56,745 bases of DNA. Source: Thermoanaerobaculia bacterium. GTDB lineage: Bacteria > Acidobacteriota > Thermoanaerobaculia > JALWYX01. Position 1 is the first letter of the stretch, and each line of letters opens with the position of its first letter. The stretch is taken from contig JALWYX010000040.1 of the NCBI GenBank assembly GCA_027078415.1, forward strand, positions 1-56,745, given 5' to 3'. A program made the translations under genes and the position numbers. The notes below the pieces were generated by a model. The model was not told the origin of the DNA. It was given only the letters and a program-made list of their open reading frames with translations, and ran no database searches. Below, in pieces: positions 16,389-26,171 of the stretch.

Positions 16389-16459
16389 GATGGATAAAGA
16401 ATAGCATATTTTGCAAATCTAATAACTACTTTTGCTCGTACTATGTTAAGAGGAACGTG

Positions 16460-17047
16460 ATGATGATCGCTAAAGAGTTGGAAATAGATAAATGTAGCGA
16501 TTCCGAGTTGCTCTATATGATAAAGATGGGTGATGAAAAAGCTCTAGAAGAACTATATAGAAGGTATTACTCTATAGTTAAAGGTTTGGCTCTAAAAATT
16601 TTACGTAACGACGAAGAAGCTAATGAGGTTGTACAAACAGTTTTTATTCAAGTTTGGGATGAAGCGCACAAGTATTCTACAGATAAAGGTTCTGTTTTCA
16701 GTTGGATAATGCTTATAGCACGCAGTAGGGCTATTGATAGATTCAGAGTATTAAAGCGAAAATTTGCAACGGAGCTTTACGAGATTCCAAGTTGCTATGA
16801 AGTTGAAAGCGAAAATGAGCAAACTGTGTTGTATAGTCAGCAGAGAAAGATCGTTTTAAACGCTTTGGAGGCTCTACCTACAATACAGAGAGAAGTTCTA
16901 GAACTTGCTTATTTCGAAGGCTTATCGCAATCACAAATAGCTAAGAAGTTGGATATACCTTTAGGCACAGTTAAAACAAGAACATTACACGCTTTACGGA
17001 AACTTAGAAAAATACTTGGAGGTTGTAAGGCAGAAATTTTAGGATAG
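16460..17047 (+). CDS. ECF sigma factor (SigK-like)
   Basis: An RNA polymerase sigma-70 family protein of about 195 aa. Region 2 spans EELYRRYYSIV, NEVVQTVFIQVWDEA and GSVFSWIMLIARSRAIDRFR. Region 4 spans LPTIQREVLELAYFEGLSQS and IAKKLDIPLGTVKTRTLHAL. GTG (16457), ATG (16460) and ATG (16463) are in tandem. The AAGAGGA ribosome binding site (16448-16454) suits 16460 or 16463. The next gene, 8 nt on, encodes an RskA-like membrane protein, so this is a sigma/anti-sigma pair of the SigK/RskA kind. The regulon and signal are unknown. Confidence 0.9.
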   Translation: MMIAKELEIDKCSDSELLYMIKMGDEKALEELYRRYYSIVKGLALKILRNDEEANEVVQTVFIQVWDEAHKYSTDKGSVFSWIMLIARSRAIDRFRVLKRKFATELYEIPSCYEVESENEQTVLYSQQRKIVLNALEALPTIQREVLELAYFEGLSQSQIAKKLDIPLGTVKTRTLHALRKLRKILGGCKAEILG

Positions 17048-17055
17048 GTAAAACT

Positions 17056-17808
17056 ATGACTAAAAAAGATTGGTTGATAGAAACTGTAGATAAAGAGAGA
17101 GATGGCAAAGAGTTGAAAGAGGTGCTAGCACTTTTAACGTTTAAAGTGCCACTTGTTAACAGTGGTTATAGGTATAATTGGCAAAAGATAAAAAAGTATA
17201 TTGCTCAATCTAAGATCAAGAAATTTCCTTATGAATCACAATCTAAGAAATTAACTGGAATTAGTTTTCTCCCGTATTTAGCAGCTAGTTTTATGTTGCT
17301 TGGCTTTTTGGTAGTTTTACTTTTTGGGTATTATACCAAGAATAAAAGATTGCAAACTCTTAATAAAGAGGTTGCATCCTTGAAAAAATGGGTTGAGATT
17401 CTCGATTCGGAATCAAAAAGCGTTAGAAGCTACCTTAATATGGTTACTTCAGTAGGTACCGTTGTAGCTGTGTTCCATGATACGCGTTTTCGAGATAAAG
17501 TTAAGGGCGCTATTTTCATAGATCCTTCCAGGAAAGCTTACTATCTTAAGCTTGAAGATTTGGATCCATGTCCACCCAATAAGAGGTATAGAGTGTGGTT
17601 TGTAAGTAAAGTGGGGAAAGAAACTTTTTATTTACCTTGTATACATTTTTCTACTACAAATAGTGGGAAACTTGAATTTCTTATAGAACGTAAAATACCA
17701 GAAAACCTAGAGGCGGTTATTGTAACTCTCGAAGATAGTGTCCAAGATTCATATACACCGAGCGGTGAAATAGTACTCAAAGCCGATAATTTTAAGAAAA
17801 TAAGTTAA
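17056..17808 (+). CDS. RskA-like anti-sigma factor
   Basis: A 250-aa protein with a cytoplasmic N-terminus (about 1-75), one membrane helix (about 77-97, LPYLAASFMLLGFLVVLLFG), a short coiled segment, and an extracytoplasmic C-terminal domain. That domain has the RskA pattern: YRVWFVSKVGKETFYL, then a VTLEDS-type strand and a PSGEIVLKA ending, close to the usual VTLEP and PTGPVVL. RskA proteins hold their ECF sigma factor at the membrane. The position directly after such a sigma gene supports that role. The N-terminus lacks an obvious zinc-finger HxxxCxxC motif. Confidence 0.8.
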   Translation: MTKKDWLIETVDKERDGKELKEVLALLTFKVPLVNSGYRYNWQKIKKYIAQSKIKKFPYESQSKKLTGISFLPYLAASFMLLGFLVVLLFGYYTKNKRLQTLNKEVASLKKWVEILDSESKSVRSYLNMVTSVGTVVAVFHDTRFRDKVKGAIFIDPSRKAYYLKLEDLDPCPPNKRYRVWFVSKVGKETFYLPCIHFSTTNSGKLEFLIERKIPENLEAVIVTLEDSVQDSYTPSGEIVLKADNFKKIS

Positions 17809-18005: not shown

Positions 18006-20186
18006 CTAGTTGTTTAGTTGTGTTTCTCTATAGTTGCACTCCTTGTTTGGGCAAGAGAGAATAGTTGTTTTACCTTTGTTTACTTCTATAAGGTAGCTGT
18101 TTTGACATAGAGGGCAACTTTTGTTAACAGGTTTTTGCCAGGAAGTAAATGAACATTTTGGATATTCACTACAACCAAAAAATAGCTTTCCTTTTTTGGT
18201 TTTACGTTCTATCACTTCTCCTTTTTTACAGTTAGGACATTGCATGCCTGTTTTTTTTGTCAGTGAACTGGTTAAGTTGCATTTATCGCATTTGAGGTAG
18301 AAACCGAATCTTCCTTTTTTGAGTTCCATTAGCTCTCCACACTTGGGGCAAATTTGAGCAGCTTCTTCTTGGTTATCTGTAGATAAATCTTTTGTAAATG
18401 AACATTTGGGATAGCTACTACAACCTATAAATGGACCGTATCTTCCAAATCTTATTTTTAGGTTGCTACCACATTTTGGGCAAGTTTCATTGAGTTCTAT
18501 ACCTTCTTTCTTTAGGTTCGGAAGTTCCGTTTCTGCCTTTTTAAGGTCTTCTTCAAATTTCTGCGCGAACTCCTTTAAAACCTCTTTCCAATTTTTTTCT
18601 CCTCTCTCTATATAGTCCAATTGCTCTTCTAGGTAAGAAGTATATTTTTCGTTGATTATGGAAGAAAAACCTTGTTTTAGTAATTCGTTTACGATCATTC
18701 CTAGTTTGGTGGGTACAAATTTACCTTTTTCCTTAACACAATACTCTCTGTCTGTTAGGGTAGAGAGTATTGTAGCGTAAGTTGAAGGTCTTCCTATACC
18801 TTTCTCCTCTAAAGCTTTTACTAGTGTAGCGTCAGAGAATCGAGATGGAGGTTTAGTAAACTTCTGAATAGTTTCTATACTTTTTACTAGTAAAGGTCCA
18901 GCTTTGTTTATTGGAGGGAAGTTGTCCCTCTCCGCGTTTTCTTCCCGGTATATGTGAAGAAAGCCTGGAAAAACAAGCCGTTTAAACTTAGCAATAAATG
19001 AGTAGTTATCTACTGCTATTTTTATCTCAAGGTTGTTATATATAGCGGGTTTCATTTGAGATGCTACAAATCTTTTCCATATAAGCGAATAGATTTTTAG
19101 TTGATCTTTGTTCAAATGTTTGGCCATTGTATCTGGAGTGAGAGCTATGTTAGTGGGTCGTATCGCTTCATGAGCATCTTGTGCACTTGATCTGTTTTTA
19201 AATTTGTTGGCTTTTTTAGGTAAATATTCTCTACCTATATTTTCCTTTATAAACTCTCTAGCTGATTTTAGAGCTTCATCGGCTATTCTAACCGAATCTG
19301 TACGCATATATGTGATTACTCCTACTACCTCTGAACCTATTCGTACGCCTTCATAAAGTTCTTGCGCTATAAGCATAGTCTTTTTTGCGGAGAATCCGAA
19401 CTTTTTGTTAGCTTCTTGTTGTAGCGTGGAAGTTATAAAGGGTGGCGGCGGTGACAACTTAGACTCTTTACGTTTTACTTCTTCAACTATTCCTTTTTGT
19501 CCAACCAACTCTTTTTTAACTTGTTCAGCCTCTTCCCGGTTTTGTTTTTCAAGTTTTGCTTTTATAGATACTCCTTCTTTAGAGGTAAATTCAGCCTCTA
19601 CTACCCAATACTCTTGCGGTTTGAATGAATTTATCTCCTCTTCTCTGTCGCATACCATTTTAAGAGCGACAGATTGGACTCTTCCTGCAGAAAGTCCCTG
19701 TTTTACTTTCTTCCAAAGTAAAGGAGAGAGCTTAAATCCCAAGATTCTATCTAACAGTCGTCTGGCTTGCTGGGCGTTTACTTTGTTTATATCGATATCT
19801 CGAGGTTGTTTTAGAGCTTTGAGCACAGCGTTTCGGGTTATTTCATTAAAAACTATTCTTTTTATTTTGGATTTTTCTTTAACTTTAGAAAGTATAAACT
19901 TTATGTGCCAAGCTATAGCTTCTCCTTCACGATCTGGATCTGGGGCCAAGTAGATCTCTTCTACATTTTTCGCAGTTTCTTTCAGTTTTTTAACTACCTC
20001 TTTTTTTTCCGGAAGAATTACATAGCTGGGGGTCAAAGTTTTCTCGTTTATACCAAATTTGTCCTTTGGTAGATCACGAATATGGCCTACCGATGCTTCC
20101 ACTAGAAATTCTTTACCAACAAATCCTTTTATCGTTTTAGTTTTAGCTGTGCTTTCAACGACTATTAGTTTTTTAGGTTTCTCCAT
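18006..20186 (-). CDS. topA: DNA topoisomerase I
   Basis: A type IA topoisomerase of 726 aa that relaxes negative supercoils. The Toprim domain carries DPDREGEAIAWHI, and the catalytic Tyr lies in VITYMRTDSVRI. The N-terminal motif reads VESTAKTKTI, with Thr where most have VESPAK. The C-terminus has four zinc-ribbon units, beginning TCPKCGSNL, ICPKCGELM, QCPNCKKGE and SCPLCQNSY, each ending in a second Cys pair. Its start overlaps the end of dprA by 14 nt, the common dprA-topA arrangement. Confidence 0.97.
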   Translation of the reverse strand: MEKPKKLIVVESTAKTKTIKGFVGKEFLVEASVGHIRDLPKDKFGINEKTLTPSYVILPEKKEVVKKLKETAKNVEEIYLAPDPDREGEAIAWHIKFILSKVKEKSKIKRIVFNEITRNAVLKALKQPRDIDINKVNAQQARRLLDRILGFKLSPLLWKKVKQGLSAGRVQSVALKMVCDREEEINSFKPQEYWVVEAEFTSKEGVSIKAKLEKQNREEAEQVKKELVGQKGIVEEVKRKESKLSPPPPFITSTLQQEANKKFGFSAKKTMLIAQELYEGVRIGSEVVGVITYMRTDSVRIADEALKSAREFIKENIGREYLPKKANKFKNRSSAQDAHEAIRPTNIALTPDTMAKHLNKDQLKIYSLIWKRFVASQMKPAIYNNLEIKIAVDNYSFIAKFKRLVFPGFLHIYREENAERDNFPPINKAGPLLVKSIETIQKFTKPPSRFSDATLVKALEEKGIGRPSTYATILSTLTDREYCVKEKGKFVPTKLGMIVNELLKQGFSSIINEKYTSYLEEQLDYIERGEKNWKEVLKEFAQKFEEDLKKAETELPNLKKEGIELNETCPKCGSNLKIRFGRYGPFIGCSSYPKCSFTKDLSTDNQEEAAQICPKCGELMELKKGRFGFYLKCDKCNLTSSLTKKTGMQCPNCKKGEVIERKTKKGKLFFGCSEYPKCSFTSWQKPVNKSCPLCQNSYLIEVNKGKTTILSCPNKECNYRETQLNN

Positions 20187-21096
20187 ACAGCGCGTTTATT
20201 ATATCCAAATCTTCAGAGTTTTTCTTCAATGAGGAAGTTGTTTTTGAAGTTGTTCTGCTGTTGCGTATGTATCCCATATATTCTAGAATGTCATCTACAG
20301 ATGACACTAGATATGCGCCTTCTTGAATTAACCTATTTACGCCTTTAGCTTGCTTATCAGTTATTCTTCCAGGTATCGCAAAGATATCCTTTCCTAATTC
20401 TAAAGCGTAGTTTGCTGTGATAAGAGCTCCGGAGCGTTCGTTTGCTTCAACCACCAGGACAGCCTTCGCGAGTGCTGCAATTACTCTGTTACGTAGAGGA
20501 AAGTTGTGGCGGTAAGGGGGGTAGAATAAAGGGAATTCGCTTAAAAAAGTTGATTGTTGTCTCATTTTTCTACGTAAAAGTAAGTTTTCTTTTGGATATT
20601 CCACAAGGATGCCACATCCTAAAACTGCTATATTTACGCCTTCTGCCCGAAGAGCTCCTATGTGAGCATATCGATCTATTCCTACTGCAAAACCAGAAAT
20701 TATTCCTATACCTTTTAAAGAAAGTTTGTATGCAAATAGCTGGGCTAAATGCACACCGTAAGGAGACGCTTTTCTGCTACCTACTATGGCTATAAGTTCA
20801 TTACTCCACTCTCGCCCTTTTACGTACAGTACCGGTGGAGGAGAATCTAGAATTTTTAGTTCTTGAGGATATTCCTGGTCTAGGGGTGTTATTATTTTGA
20901 TTCCATTTTTTTTACATAAAGTTTCTATTTTAATTACAGTTTTTTCTTCGATGTTTGCTGATGCTATTGCTTTTTCCAAATTTTTCATCGATTTTTTAGA
21001 GAAGTTAGTCTCTATTAGTTTACGGGTAACTTTGTAAATTTTGTTTCTCTCTTTCCTAATTTCCCCTAGTGCTATTAGTTGTTTTTTTAGATCCAT
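20173..21096 (-). CDS. dprA: DNA-processing protein DprA
   Basis: A 307-aa member of the DprA/Smf family, which binds single-stranded DNA and loads RecA during natural transformation. The extended Rossmann fold shows AIVGSRKASPYG, IGIISGFAVGIDRYAH, VLGCGILVEYP, NFPLRNRVIAAL and VVEANERSGALITANYAL. After the core only about 35 residues remain, so the C-terminal winged-helix domain found in many DprA proteins is missing or very short. Co-transcribed with topA, with overlapping ends. Confidence 0.94.
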   Translation of the reverse strand: MDLKKQLIALGEIRKERNKIYKVTRKLIETNFSKKSMKNLEKAIASANIEEKTVIKIETLCKKNGIKIITPLDQEYPQELKILDSPPPVLYVKGREWSNELIAIVGSRKASPYGVHLAQLFAYKLSLKGIGIISGFAVGIDRYAHIGALRAEGVNIAVLGCGILVEYPKENLLLRRKMRQQSTFLSEFPLFYPPYRHNFPLRNRVIAALAKAVLVVEANERSGALITANYALELGKDIFAIPGRITDKQAKGVNRLIQEGAYLVSSVDDILEYMGYIRNSRTTSKTTSSLKKNSEDLDIINALYGET

Positions 21097-21190: not shown

Positions 21191-21544
21191 ATGTTAAAAA
21201 AAATAGTTTTTATAATAGTTGCTTTTGCAGTTTTAAGTTGTGCTAGACAATTCGGCTCATATCCAACGTTGCAAGATGAGCTAAGGTTTATAGGAGAGAT
21301 ATCTGAATATGGGTTATGGAATGAAAGCTTTTTTAGATTGAGCAGATTGTATTCTCTGTATCCAGATAATCCTGAAATAGCTAATAATCTGGCAGTTGCG
21401 TGTGAAGCGCTAGGTAAATACAAACAAGCGGAGTTGTTGTACCGTAAAGCTCTTAGCATAGATCCTAATAACAGGTATATAAAGGAAAATTATGAGCGAT
21501 TTAAAAGGATTAGGAAAGGTGAAGATAAAGATAACAATAATTGA
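21191..21544 (+). CDS. Small TPR lipoprotein
   Basis: A 117-aa protein starting at ATG 21191. A GTG 15 nt upstream is less likely because the signal peptide would begin late. The leader MLKKIVFIIVAFAVLSC ends in a lipobox, with Cys17 as the lipidated residue. The mature part has about two tetratricopeptide units (DNPEIANNLAVACEALGKY and AELLYRKALSIDPNN), so it probably binds a protein partner at the membrane. It is the first gene of a 12-gene plus-strand run, divergent from dprA. Its end overlaps the following gene, implying coupled expression with the CsgG-like protein and the large barrel protein. Confidence 0.75.
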   Translation: MLKKIVFIIVAFAVLSCARQFGSYPTLQDELRFIGEISEYGLWNESFFRLSRLYSLYPDNPEIANNLAVACEALGKYKQAELLYRKALSIDPNNRYIKENYERFKRIRKGEDKDNNN

Positions 21545-22193
21545 GATATTGTTTCCTTTTATTTTGTATGCAGGTGTAAAAGAGGTAACTGTACCTATTA
21601 AGCAAGCGGCGAAGATAGATCTTTCGGAAAGCAGAAAAGTACTTATAGCACCCTTCATTTTCCCTGTGGAAGAAGGAGAAGAAGCGGTAAAAGAAGAAAT
21701 TGTAAAGGAGTTTAGTATATATATTGCTAGACTCTTAAAAAGGGAGACAGATATAGAGTTGAAGACAGCAGGTGACACGATCGAATATCCTGTTTATTCT
21801 ATAGAGAAGTTGAAACACCAAAAGGAGTTTTGGATCGATTTAGCTACTAGTTATAAGGTTAGATGGATATTAACAGGTAGCGTTGACTTTGACGTTAATG
21901 AACAAGTTGGATATAAGCAGGAGGAGTATATTTCGCCTTTCGATGGTCGCGTTTATACTCGACAAATATTGGTAGAAGAGACTGGATTTAGCTTGGATTT
22001 TCTAATTTTAGTTATAGATGGTCTATCTGGTGAGGTAGTTTTAGAGGAACATTTTAAAGATTTCACATCTTTAGAAGGTAGAAGGTTGGATCCACTTAAA
22101 GGTTTGTTTAAAAACTTATCTAAACTGGAAGATAAGATAGTAGCTATATTTAAAGAATTTACTGTTATAGATAGTAGGTATTTACTCTATTAA
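21519..22193 (+). CDS. Exported CsgG/TolB-N-like protein
   Basis: About 224 aa from a GTG at 21519, preceded by AGGAAAG. An in-frame ATG at 21492 would put 9 charged residues before the signal peptide. The leader KIKITIIEILFPFILYAG looks cleavable. The mature domain opens with KVLIAPFIFPV and later has YKVRWILTGSVDFDV and SLDFLILVIDGLSGEVV. This is the strand pattern of the anticodon-binding-like fold shared by CsgG, FlgT and TolB N-domains (VAVLPF ... ILTGSV). No catalytic site is evident. It is sandwiched between a TPR lipoprotein and an Omp85-type fusion, so a periplasmic assembly or transport role is likely. Family assignment is tentative. Confidence 0.55.
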   Translation: MKIKITIIEILFPFILYAGVKEVTVPIKQAAKIDLSESRKVLIAPFIFPVEEGEEAVKEEIVKEFSIYIARLLKRETDIELKTAGDTIEYPVYSIEKLKHQKEFWIDLATSYKVRWILTGSVDFDVNEQVGYKQEEYISPFDGRVYTRQILVEETGFSLDFLILVIDGLSGEVVLEEHFKDFTSLEGRRLDPLKGLFKNLSKLEDKIVAIFKEFTVIDSRYLLY

Positions 22194-22203
22194 AGGTGGC
22201 GTA

Positions 22204-25023
22204 ATGAGAAGGGTTATATATTTCATTGTAACATGTTATATGGGGTTCTATCCGTTATTTGCTCAATTTGGTAAAAATAAGGTGCAATATTATGAGTTTG
22301 AGTGGTTTAGGTATGAGTCGCTACATTTTGTTGTTTATTATTATAAAGGAGCAGAGAATCTTCTAACTAAAATAGTTTCTTTTGCTGAAAGTGCATACGA
22401 TGAGTTGTCCAGAAAGCTCAACTATTCTATAGATGAAAAGATAAATCTTATCTACTACGCTACTTTTTCTCATTTTGAACAGACCAATGTTATAGGGCCC
22501 GGTTTTGTTCCTGAGGGCGCTTTAGCTTTTGCCACTCCTGTTAAAAAACGCATGGTATTACCTGCTGATCTTCCCGACCCTGAGTTGTATCAGTTGATTA
22601 CGCACGAACTTACTCATATTTTTCAATACCACATGATTTTAGGTGAAAATAGGTTTGTGGGTACCGGATTTATGCTTCCTGCCTGGCTTATGGAGGGTAT
22701 GGCAAGTTATTTTGCCAAGGATGAAACTAGTTCCGATAAAATGTTTCTACGTGACGCTGTAGTCAATCATAGGATTCCAAATATTACAGAAAGTCGAGGT
22801 TTTAGCTTTTTCGCATATAGAATAGGTCACGCGGTTTTCGATTTTATCGAAGAAAAATGGGGTGTGGAGGGAATAAGAGATTTCCTACTAAATCTGCGAA
22901 CCATGTTAAGAGGAGGTGTAAGCAGAGCAATTAAAAGAAGTTTTGGCTTGAGTTCTGAACAGTTTAATTTGGAGTTCGCAAGATGGTTACGTAAAAGGTA
23001 TTTGCCGCTTTTTGCCAAGTCTGGTCCTCCAGACGATTACGGTCAACCAATTTCAAATCAAGAGGGTTTCAATACTTCTCTTGTGGGATTAGCCGTTTCT
23101 CCTGGCGGAGAATTGGGAGTTACTTTCGGAGTTGTAAGGGGAGAGGTCGATGTGTATTTGCTTAATCTTAAAAAGCGTACGGTTATCAGAAATTTGACCA
23201 AAGGGTTCAATACCGTTACGGGTGATTTCGTTGCTCAGATGTTTACAACTGGTAGAAGTTCTGGAAACGATTTGGCCTTTTCTCCAGACGGCAATTTGGT
23301 AGCAGTTTTTGCTAAGAAAGAAGGGAAGAGAGTATTGGTACTTTTAAACGTAATAAAGGGAGGTATACACAAAGTTATTCCTATAGAGTTAGATCAGCCT
23401 AGAAATCCTGTTTTTCACCCGAAAAAAATGGAAATTTACTTTTCTGCTGCTAAAAGAGGGCAATTTGATATATTCAAGATCAACCTGGAAAATTTTGAGG
23501 TGGAGAACGTTACAAATGATGAATATTTTGATTTAAGTCCTGCTATTTCGCACGATGGTTCCAAACTCGTTTACGTATCTTCTCGGGGAAAGTATATGGC
23601 TCTTTATATAAAGGAGGGCAACGAAGCTTCTAAACCTTTAATACGGGGTAAGATAAACGTTAGAGATCCTGTCTTCTCTCCTGATGGAAAGAGAGTGTAT
23701 TTTACCGGTGACCTTAACGATACTGAAAACATATACTACATATCCTTAGAAGAGAACAAAATTTTTAAGCTTACAGATCTTGTAACAGGTGCATTTATGC
23801 CTGCGATTGCTAGGAGCAAAGATGGAGATTATACTTTTGCTTTTACCTCTCTTTGGAATGGGGTATTTGGACTTTACGTTGCCGATGTAAAAAAACCGTT
23901 AGAAGTTAGTATTGAATCCGTTGAAGAAAAGGATACTTTTGAGCCACCGTTGGAGATATACGCTTCAATAGATAGGGCAAAAAAGTATAAAAGGTCACCT
24001 TTTTTCTTGCAAGATGCAAGTGGAGGGGTAGGTGTTACTTCGGATGGAATTCTTATTTCTCAACTGCAGCTGTTTTTTTCCGATATTTTGGGAGACAAAC
24101 AGATATTAGCTTTTGTTGGTTCAGCTGATACTTTTTCCCAAGTAGATCTTTTTTATTTGGATATAGGGAAAAGATGGCAAAAGGGGGTTAGAGTATTTGA
24201 TAGAAGACTTTTCTTTGTTACTTTTGTGGAAGATCAGTCTGGAAATCTTAGACTCCTGAGAAGAAATGTGTTTACTTTAACCGGTTTGAGTAGCTTTGCA
24301 TTCTACCCTTTAGATAAGTTTAATAGGTTGGAGTTAGCTGCTGGGTATCTACTGCGTGATTATGAATTACCAGTTTTTAGACCCGATACTGGTGAAGTTG
24401 TTATTTTTGAGGTAAGCGATAATTTTCCATTTATAAATGCTGCGTTTGTCCGTGATAATGCTAAGTTTGCTCCATGGGGTGCTATTGCTGGGAATAGGAT
24501 GAGAATAGAAGCTTCCTACGGTATAGGCTCTAAAGCAGCTAGCCAGGTCTCTTTTGATATACGTGGCTATATGCCTGTTTCCTTACGTTCCAATTTTGCC
24601 TTTAGGTTGTTTGGTGCTGCTAGTTATGGCGATAATCCTAACGTTATATTTTTTGGAGGTACCGATGACTTTAGAGGGGTGCGCTACGCTTCTTTCAGTG
24701 GAGATAGAGCTTTTTTTGTCAACTTAGAGTATAGATTCCCGCTCGTGGATAGATTGCATTTGCCTTTTATGCACCTTAACAATATAAGAGGCAGAATTTT
24801 CGTGGATGTTGCAGGTGCGTGGTTTGATTCTCTTGGAGAAGATTTTGTTTTCTGGGACTCTACTGGTAATAAGCTTCAAGATGCCAAGTCGGTATACGGT
24901 TTTGGTGTATCCTTTGCATTCCAAGGAATATGGTTACATTGGGATTTTTCTAAACGTTGGGATTTTAAAAACGTTCTGGATGACAGTTTTAACACAAGTT
25001 TTTGGATAGGTACCAGATTTTAG
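22204..25023 (+). CDS. Peptidase-propeller-Omp85 barrel fusion protein
   Basis: A 939-aa outer-membrane protein candidate with three parts. After a signal peptide (1-20), residues about 35-275 form a gluzincin-like peptidase domain with HELTH (134-138) and a downstream WLMEGMASYF holding the third ligand Glu164, so the zinc site looks intact. Residues about 290-590 contain TolB/PD40-type propeller repeats (LAFSPDGNLVAVFA, PAISHDGSKLVYVSS, PVFSPDGKRVYFTG). Residues about 600-939 resemble the Omp85/surface-antigen barrel: FFGGTDDFRGVRY, then RIFVDVAGAW and a final aromatic residue (F). It may process, insert or secrete a substrate at the outer membrane. The ribosome binding site AAGGTGG precedes the ATG. 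Confidence 0.8.
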   Translation: MRRVIYFIVTCYMGFYPLFAQFGKNKVQYYEFEWFRYESLHFVVYYYKGAENLLTKIVSFAESAYDELSRKLNYSIDEKINLIYYATFSHFEQTNVIGPGFVPEGALAFATPVKKRMVLPADLPDPELYQLITHELTHIFQYHMILGENRFVGTGFMLPAWLMEGMASYFAKDETSSDKMFLRDAVVNHRIPNITESRGFSFFAYRIGHAVFDFIEEKWGVEGIRDFLLNLRTMLRGGVSRAIKRSFGLSSEQFNLEFARWLRKRYLPLFAKSGPPDDYGQPISNQEGFNTSLVGLAVSPGGELGVTFGVVRGEVDVYLLNLKKRTVIRNLTKGFNTVTGDFVAQMFTTGRSSGNDLAFSPDGNLVAVFAKKEGKRVLVLLNVIKGGIHKVIPIELDQPRNPVFHPKKMEIYFSAAKRGQFDIFKINLENFEVENVTNDEYFDLSPAISHDGSKLVYVSSRGKYMALYIKEGNEASKPLIRGKINVRDPVFSPDGKRVYFTGDLNDTENIYYISLEENKIFKLTDLVTGAFMPAIARSKDGDYTFAFTSLWNGVFGLYVADVKKPLEVSIESVEEKDTFEPPLEIYASIDRAKKYKRSPFFLQDASGGVGVTSDGILISQLQLFFSDILGDKQILAFVGSADTFSQVDLFYLDIGKRWQKGVRVFDRRLFFVTFVEDQSGNLRLLRRNVFTLTGLSSFAFYPLDKFNRLELAAGYLLRDYELPVFRPDTGEVVIFEVSDNFPFINAAFVRDNAKFAPWGAIAGNRMRIEASYGIGSKAASQVSFDIRGYMPVSLRSNFAFRLFGAASYGDNPNVIFFGGTDDFRGVRYASFSGDRAFFVNLEYRFPLVDRLHLPFMHLNNIRGRIFVDVAGAWFDSLGEDFVFWDSTGNKLQDAKSVYGFGVSFAFQGIWLHWDFSKRWDFKNVLDDSFNTSFWIGTRF

Positions 25024-25025
25024 AT

Positions 25026-26171
25026 ATGAGCGCTTCAGAAATTTTGGGAGTTAAAGGTCTAGAACTCCTAAAGATGGGAGTCGAGATAGTAAGCACTTTA
25101 GATTTAGATCAAGTGCTAGAGAAGGCATTGGTAAAAGCGGAAACTCTATGCGCTGCAGATGCTAGTTCTATATGGGAAGTGGATGATGCAGAGGAAGGTC
25201 TTTACCTACGGTTGGTAAGAGGGAAAGAAGCGCCTAAGTTAAGAGATATTTTTGTAAATATGGGAGAAGGAATAGTAGGAAACGTAGCGTTATCGCAGAA
25301 AGCAGAGATAGTAAGTAACGTACCTCAAGACAAGAGGTGGTTAGGGAGATATATACCGTTGGAGAGTATCTCATCGATATTGACTGTTCCTTTAGTTGCT
25401 GCCCAGAAAAGTGTAGGTGTAATACAGCTTATAATGTACGGTGATAAAAGGTTTACAGATGAGGATCTGGAGTTGATAAGTTTACTCTCTGCTCCTATAG
25501 CAGCAGCGATGGCTAATGCGCGTTTATATGCGAAACAGCGTGCTCTATTTGCTCAAACCATATCATCTTTGGCTGAAGCTGTAGAAAGAAGGGATCCTTA
25601 TACAGGTGGACATACTAAGAGAGTTCTTTACTATTCTCTCGTTATAGGGAAGTTTCTAGGTTTATCTGTTGATGAATTGAAAGAGTTGTACGTGGCAGCG
25701 GTCTTACATGATATAGGTAAAATAGCTGTTCCAGATAAGATTCTTCAGAAACCAGCACCTCTTTCTAGAGATGAGTTTGATATTCTTACTAAGCACCCTG
25801 TAGACGGTGCTACTATTATAGCTAATATCTCTGGTATGGATAAGGTTGTAGAGGCTGTTAAGTATCACCATGAGAGGTTTGATGGTAAAGGATATCCTGA
25901 TAGACTAAAAGGGGAGAATATTCCTCTACTTGCACGTATTATAGCTGTAGCTGATACTTTCGATGCTATGACAACCGACCGTCCCTATAGGAAAGCACTT
26001 TCCTTTGAAGAGGCTGTGAAAGAGATTGAGAGATTTTCTGGAACCCAGTTTTGTCCTAACGTTGTAAGAACTTTTAAAGAAGCTTATAATATGGGAAAAT
26101 TTAAATTAGAGGAAGGAAAGAGGATAGCTGAGATTCTCTTTCCAGAAAGTGAGAAAACTAGGTCTAACTAA
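25026..26171 (+). CDS. GAF-HD-GYP c-di-GMP phosphodiesterase-like protein
   Basis: About 381 aa from ATG 25026; a TTG 24 nt upstream overlaps the barrel gene. Residues about 15-165 are a GAF sensor domain, followed by a helical linker. Residues about 180-370 are an HD-GYP domain with HD at 228-229 (VLHDIGKIAVPDKIL), HHERFDGKGYP at 281-291, and a DTFDAMTTDRPYR segment. HD-GYP proteins hydrolyse cyclic di-GMP, and all signature residues are intact. There is no membrane segment. The stop overlaps the next start (TAATG), so it is co-translated with a second cyclic-nucleotide phosphodiesterase-like enzyme. Confidence 0.9.
   Translation: MSASEILGVKGLELLKMGVEIVSTLDLDQVLEKALVKAETLCAADASSIWEVDDAEEGLYLRLVRGKEAPKLRDIFVNMGEGIVGNVALSQKAEIVSNVPQDKRWLGRYIPLESISSILTVPLVAAQKSVGVIQLIMYGDKRFTDEDLELISLLSAPIAAAMANARLYAKQRALFAQTISSLAEAVERRDPYTGGHTKRVLYYSLVIGKFLGLSVDELKELYVAAVLHDIGKIAVPDKILQKPAPLSRDEFDILTKHPVDGATIIANISGMDKVVEAVKYHHERFDGKGYPDRLKGENIPLLARIIAVADTFDAMTTDRPYRKALSFEEAVKEIERFSGTQFCPNVVRTFKEAYNMGKFKLEEGKRIAEILFPESEKTRSN

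Follow-up and report, generated by a model that had tools for sequence, protein, structure and literature searches.

The Omp85 superfamily of outer-membrane proteins contains several subfamilies that were described in 2014 and had the status of uncharacterised proteins a decade later. Among them is one that Heinz and Lithgow (2014) named 'WD40-Omp85' and likened to a fusion of BamA with BamB, with no function assigned (PMC4104836), and WD40-like Omp85 proteins were still listed as uncharacterised in a 2024 paper on the patatin-Omp85 protein PlpD (PMC11116518). Here, we describe three adjacent genes, referred to as genes 1 to 3 or the trio, of which the last encodes a protein that fits this subfamily and carries in addition an N-terminal zinc peptidase. 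They lie on the forward (+) strand at positions 21191-25023 of the window, i.e. the whole analysed stretch of 56,745 nucleotides (contig JALWYX010000040.1 of assembly GCA_027078415.1, a Thermoanaerobaculia bacterium), where a preliminary description made from the sequence alone had placed all three open reading frames.

The β-barrel assembly machinery (BAM), through BamA, BamB and BamD, is made of the same kinds of parts as the trio, namely a BamA-type barrel, a propeller and a tetratricopeptide repeat (TPR) lipoprotein. Unlike BAM, the trio is without a POTRA domain, has its propeller fused to the barrel and includes an extra peptidase as well as a protein with the fold of the TolB N-terminal domain (TolB-N), and its gene 1 product is far smaller than BamD and unmatched by the BamD model. 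Another point of comparison is BepA, a zinc peptidase with TPRs that in E. coli acts on BAM to help LptD or to degrade it (PMC8423444). As in the trio, an envelope zinc peptidase is here combined with TPRs, and BepA acts at an Omp85 barrel; the peptidase of the trio, in contrast, is of the Peptidase_MA_2 type (no M48) and is fused to the barrel, while the TPR resides on a separate lipoprotein. PlpD resembles gene 3 in placing an enzyme domain N-terminal to an Omp85 barrel within one protein, but its enzyme is a lipase rather than a peptidase, a POTRA domain is present and there is no propeller. We know of no partner genes of the trio kind for PlpD.

Domain architecture of the three proteins

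Gene 3 (22204..25023, +) encodes 939 residues, comprising a Sec signal peptide followed by peptidase, propeller and barrel domains, and in its AlphaFold2 model (predicted local distance difference test score, pLDDT, 77.9) the peptidase is followed by a propeller of about six blades and a barrel of 16 strands. The first domain (residues 22-272; 22267..23019, +) is a gluzincin (Peptidase MA) domain: Pfam Peptidase_MA_2 matches every sequence in our 15-member domain alignment with a best E-value of 1.2e-9, the window copy alone scoring below the curated cut-off. The gluzincin signature of HExxH and a downstream Glu is present in gene 3 as the zinc-binding motif HELTH (residues 134-138; 22603..22617, +) and, 26 residues past the second His, as Glu164 in EGMAS (22693..22695, +), the candidate third zinc ligand. 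Retention of HExxH and the downstream Glu in all 134 distinct gene 3 homologues, together with the finding that no other domain of the protein is as conserved as the peptidase (mean 69% vs 58% and 56%, with 52 of 252 positions invariant), provides strong sequence evidence that the peptidase is enzymatically active and central. A search of solved structures with this domain returned no real relative, and membership of the M48/BepA family was rejected, Peptidase_M48 being absent from the Pfam matches of the 15 members.

The propeller, of about six blades (residues ~285-575; 23056..23928, +), is TolB-like, as indicated by its match to the TolB model TIGR02800 (E=2.8e-31) and by profile comparison with solved structures, in which TolB structures were the top matches (E=5e-32); identity with TolB itself was rejected at 63.5 bits against a cut-off of 343. 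The C-terminal domain (residues ~601-939, ending in Phe; 24004..25020, +) is a 16-stranded Omp85-type outer-membrane barrel, and Omp85 PF01103 matches 7 of the 15 members (best E=2.7e-10). Foldseek searches with the model retrieved both TolB (E=3.9e-11) and BamA (E=4.7e-10). Omp85 proteins carry a VRGF/Y motif in loop 6, and at this position gene 3 has FRG (residues 823-825; 24670..24678, +), located between strands 11 (797-809) and 12 (835-853) of the model and with R824 and G825 invariant in the alignment. By its 16-stranded C-terminal barrel and its loop 6 motif, gene 3 thus belongs to the Omp85 superfamily, and the peptidase-propeller-barrel fusion suggested in the preliminary description is borne out. 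Neither Pfam (window copy and 15 members) nor the AlphaFold2 model revealed a POTRA domain, the region being taken up by peptidase and propeller.

An N-terminal propeller closest to TolB and followed by an Omp85 barrel characterises WD40-Omp85 proteins, and the propeller-barrel part of gene 3 fits this published description, sharing the 16-stranded barrel, the TolB-like propeller and the lack of POTRA domains (PMC4104836). It departs from the description in having, ahead of the propeller, a zinc peptidase whose active site is invariant and in its two conserved, linked partner genes. The main text of Heinz and Lithgow (2014), as distinct from its supplementary tables, mentions neither the peptidase domain nor the partners (PMC4104836), and text searches of literature in which most subscription journals are not covered found no description of either. 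The earlier suggestion that no named system has this exact set needs correction as regards the propeller-barrel part.

Gene 1 (21191..21544, +) encodes a lipoprotein of 117 residues with one clear TPR (TPR_1, Pfam, E=5.5e-9). Its N-terminal signal peptide carries a lipobox Cys (MLKKIVFIIVAFAVLSC), Cys17 at 21239-21241 (+), and both features are present in the window copy and in most homologues.

The open reading frame of gene 2 (21492..22193, +) overlaps that of gene 1 and encodes a predicted periplasmic protein of 233 residues, with an N-terminal signal peptide, when read from ATG 21492; GTG 21519, which is preceded by AGGAAAG, is the more likely true start. Gene 3 follows after a gap of 10 nucleotides that contains its ribosome site, in line with the overlapping or tight spacing noted previously. 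Gene 2 alone gives a single Pfam hint, FlgT_M (E=0.0037), a family matched by 20 of 21 relatives in the gene 2 alignment (best E=5.3e-7). Its AlphaFold2 model (pLDDT 88.2) was matched by Foldseek, over a range of E=7e-8 to 1e-3, to HpaA (7e-8), PelC (5e-7), FlgT (1.4e-6), CsgG (4e-4) and the TolB N-domain (8e-4), and LptE was also among the matches. For HpaA, PelC, FlgT, CsgG and TolB the Foldseek probabilities were 0.97-1.00 with low template modelling (TM) scores of about 0.2-0.6, perhaps as a result of a long β-hairpin in gene 2 (residues 125-176; 21864..22019, +). On the basis of alignment and model, the predicted fold of gene 2 is that of the CsgG/TolB-N superfamily, which includes PelC and the middle domain of FlgT, the likeness being one of fold only.

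Accordingly, the CsgG-like fold and the barrel anticipated for the trio were both recovered by structure prediction, but the assignment of the middle protein as CsgG/TolB-N-like holds for its fold and not for CsgG family membership, which was rejected when a PF03783 search of the genome gave no match at 21492-22193. The same search located a true CsgG-family protein (E=2.7e-29) on another contig (C79:23052-23426), unrelated to gene 2. In addition to being unmatched by the CsgG model, gene 2 differs from the CsgG, PelC, FlgT-M and TolB-N group, with which it has its fold in common, in being a soluble secreted protein in the window and a lipoprotein in some relatives only, and in its long, charged and conserved hairpin. 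The tip of the hairpin, EEYxSPxDGRxYxRQxLVExTGF, is near-invariant in the 21 members, with G140, E144, E145, Y146, R157, Q158, E162, T164 and G165 fully so. CsgG hairpins insert into the membrane, unlike the strongly charged hairpin of gene 2; since the latter is charged on both faces and its charged residues near the tip are conserved, we rejected a CsgG-like pore as unlikely.

Housekeeping counterparts of these proteins are encoded outside the window in the same genome, with canonical BamA (TIGR03303, contig C3), BamD (TIGR03302, contig C72) and TolB (contig C67) all above curated cut-offs. BamA and BamD were therefore rejected as identities for the trio, the models for BamA with its POTRA domains and for BamD passing their cut-offs at those sites and not in the window, and it follows from the separate canonical BamA, BamD and TolB that the trio does not constitute the principal BAM or Tol system and has an additional role. 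Besides the canonical BamA, the genome encodes another BamA/TamA-like Omp85 protein, which scores below the cut-off for BamA, at C46:35070-37619 (loci L219 and L220). We also considered a Tol-Pal-like tether or sensor, in which gene 2 and the gene 3 propeller would form a split TolB in the outer membrane, linking peptidoglycan or other proteins, with the peptidase trimming partner lipoproteins. The trio indeed recreates both halves of TolB, the TolB-N fold in gene 2 and the propeller in gene 3, yet it adds a barrel and a peptidase, a full canonical TolB exists elsewhere in the genome, gene 2 is closer by Foldseek to HpaA, PelC and FlgT than to TolB, and no linked gene resembles Pal or TolA; we regard such a tether as improbable.

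Conservation of the trio in Acidobacteriota

Scanning genome contigs with the single gene 3 sequence gave no match, and the 15-member alignment was needed to gather 488 relatives, of which 80 were kept. These 80 named relatives are from Acidobacteriota, chiefly Thermoanaerobaculia, apart from one record labelled Deltaproteobacteria. Both partner genes, in the same order and on the same strand, accompany gene 3 in all 77 named loci with enough upstream DNA, the remaining three being cut by a contig end. The arrangement is likewise identical in all 20 loci fetched from the class, which represent about a dozen families and in each of which the gene 1 orthologue bears the motif GLWxEAxFRFxxA...NNLAVAxEAxGxxxxAxxxYxxAL. 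Among 61 class genomes, 51 have genes 2 and 3 together and 10 have neither, with no split case. The joint absences fall in three families, mostly in one (f4; 7 of 9 sampled genomes); because genes 2 and 3 are adjacent, gaps in draft assemblies can mimic joint absence, and such gaps could explain a few cases but hardly the seven in f4. Dozens of families carry the intact block, far beyond what chance would produce, and the trio is thus a real unit, as proposed in the preliminary description of a self-contained set.

At the level of the phylum, 297 genomes were surveyed, counting gene 3 relatives at E<=1e-60 and comparing the lists for genes 2 and 3 by eye. Gene 2 occurs in 105 genomes and gene 3 relatives in 147, and 104 of the 105 gene 2 genomes have both. 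Of 36 gene 2 loci fetched from other Acidobacteriota lineages, 26 contain the whole trio and 10 contain genes 1 and 2 only. The separate occurrence in relatives that the first description had taken as a possible refutation is seen in these 10 loci, yet 9 of the 10 genomes carry a gene 3 family member elsewhere, the exception being G308. In several of the pair-only loci (L181, L184, L185, L187, L189 and L191-L195) rplU, rpmA or obgE, recognised by sequence, lies downstream, and in most of them the gene 2 match is split around residue 100, as though an insertion were present.

We also checked 12 loci with gene 3 in genomes where the search found no gene 2 match. A TPR domain lies just upstream in all 12. 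In 11 of them, either a small secreted protein separates it from gene 3 or the TPR and gene 2 are fused in one frame. The remaining locus, L199, has an overlapping frame that can be read as a lipoprotein resembling gene 2; its profile match is weak (38%). As a group, six divergent middle proteins matched gene 2 in a profile comparison (90%, E=1.5e-6, 197 columns). Six loci show a natural fusion of genes 1 and 2 into a single open frame, in which a signal peptide precedes the TPR and no further one separates the two parts. The gene 1 and gene 2 products are thereby assigned to one compartment, and direct contact between them is suggested.

A search of plasmids found one clear partial relative of gene 3, on Salinibacter ruber plasmid pSR116, and no match to gene 2. 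This protein of 633 residues (L233:5905-7806), comprising peptidase and propeller, is 28.6% identical over residues 22-536, is annotated as 'basic secretory protein-like' and is followed by a 493-residue protein. Its sequence suggests that the enzyme-propeller core also exists outside Acidobacteriota.

An alternative that bears on these distributions is that there is no joint machine: genes 1 and 2 would be a periplasmic adaptor pair residing near topA and dprA, and gene 3 an independent outer-membrane protease that is usually adjacent. The pair-only loci with gene 3 elsewhere, the gene 3 relatives without the pair and the pSR116 protein without a linked pair all agree with this. Set against them are the 104 of 105 gene 2 genomes that also have a gene 3 family member, the joint losses within the class and the tight packing of the genes, and we give this alternative little likelihood.

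Genomic surroundings

Divergently from the trio, on the opposite strand, lie a dprA-like gene (20173..21096, -) and a topA-like gene (18006..20186, -), both named from sequence reading. The former adjoins the trio in 18 of 20 class loci and 14 of 36 loci from other lineages, the latter in 12 of 20 and 16 of 36, respectively. A gene at 26171, metallo-hydrolase-like by eye, recurs near the trio in 11 of the 20 class loci. Since it is the only other recurring neighbour, a wider functional cluster was rejected. At 25002-26171, a TTG-started frame encoding a regulator with GAF and HD-GYP-type (HD_5) domains overlaps the end of gene 3 and adjoins the trio in one class locus of 20. An extracytoplasmic function (ECF) sigma factor followed by a putative anti-sigma protein (RskA-like, below cut-off) is encoded at 16457-17808, and this pair is not kept beside the trio in relatives. 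Promoter and terminator scans did no better than on shuffled sequence.

The surroundings are relevant to a further explanation, namely dedicated export and maturation, in which the barrel would move a single class of secreted or surface protein across the outer membrane, the peptidase would cleave it in transit and genes 1 and 2 would feed the substrate. FhaC and similar Omp85 relatives translocate single substrates (PMC4104836), and an invariant active site in a trio that some lineages dispense with fits a specialised client. Nevertheless, no substrate gene is conserved in linkage, neighbours other than topA and dprA being variable, and the work on PlpD argues against translocation of the fused enzyme domain (PMC11116518), so that we find dedicated export rather unlikely.

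Proposed function and significance

We tentatively propose that the trio forms an outer-membrane protease-Omp85 complex for protein assembly or proteolytic quality control. Sequence and model show the domains, the catalytic residues, the linkage and the natural joining of gene 1 to gene 2, and from these we infer the complex, its topology, its substrate and its activity. The 16-stranded barrel would anchor gene 3 in the outer membrane, with propeller and peptidase held in the periplasm, a topology proposed by analogy with PlpD, the enzyme domain of which remains periplasmic (PMC11116518). The gene 1 lipoprotein would be tethered to the membrane through its lipid, and gene 2 would serve as a TolB-N-fold adaptor, the two binding each other and docking on gene 3. 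The complex might then receive outer-membrane or exported proteins and aid their insertion or passage, while the peptidase would cut clients, either removing stalled ones or maturing them, possibly as BepA does on BAM; this role in assembly and cutting is suggested by the general function of Omp85 proteins (PMC4104836) and by the action of BepA on LptD (PMC8423444).

Several observations weigh against an assembly or quality control complex. Gene 3 is without the POTRA domain by which Omp85 insertases usually bind their substrates, and no substrate gene is linked to the trio, the neighbours beyond topA and dprA varying. Whole lineages lack the trio, as in 7 of 9 sampled f4 genomes, and it is therefore not essential for outer-membrane biogenesis. 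Furthermore, gene 3 and the pair are apart in 10 of 36 loci from other lineages, 9 of these 10 genomes having a copy elsewhere, and gene 3 paralogues at L210-L212 have neither a TPR nor a gene 2 partner; gene 3 may thus work without partners, given its separation from the pair and these solitary relatives. The paralogues in question (L210:2861-5941, L211:2567-5839 and L212:4111-7272) are divergent, with a weaker barrel match, and form a separate subfamily, and similar divergent second copies occur in one family of the class (f6).

It is possible, although we put this forward with some reserve, that much of Acidobacteriota has an undescribed machine in which barrel, propeller and peptidase, together with both partners, insert or export and proteolyse proteins in one complex, as an alternative to the use of BAM together with separate proteases. 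With the trio, the uncharacterised WD40-Omp85 subfamily gains two conserved partners and an enzymatic domain whose active site is invariant, and a protein of unknown function becomes a testable three-protein complex with a defined active-site motif, HELTH. If the proposal is true, a single protein would unite outer-membrane protein assembly with proteolysis; such a combination would be a novelty in envelope biology, and a common one in a phylum that is abundant in soils and sediments.

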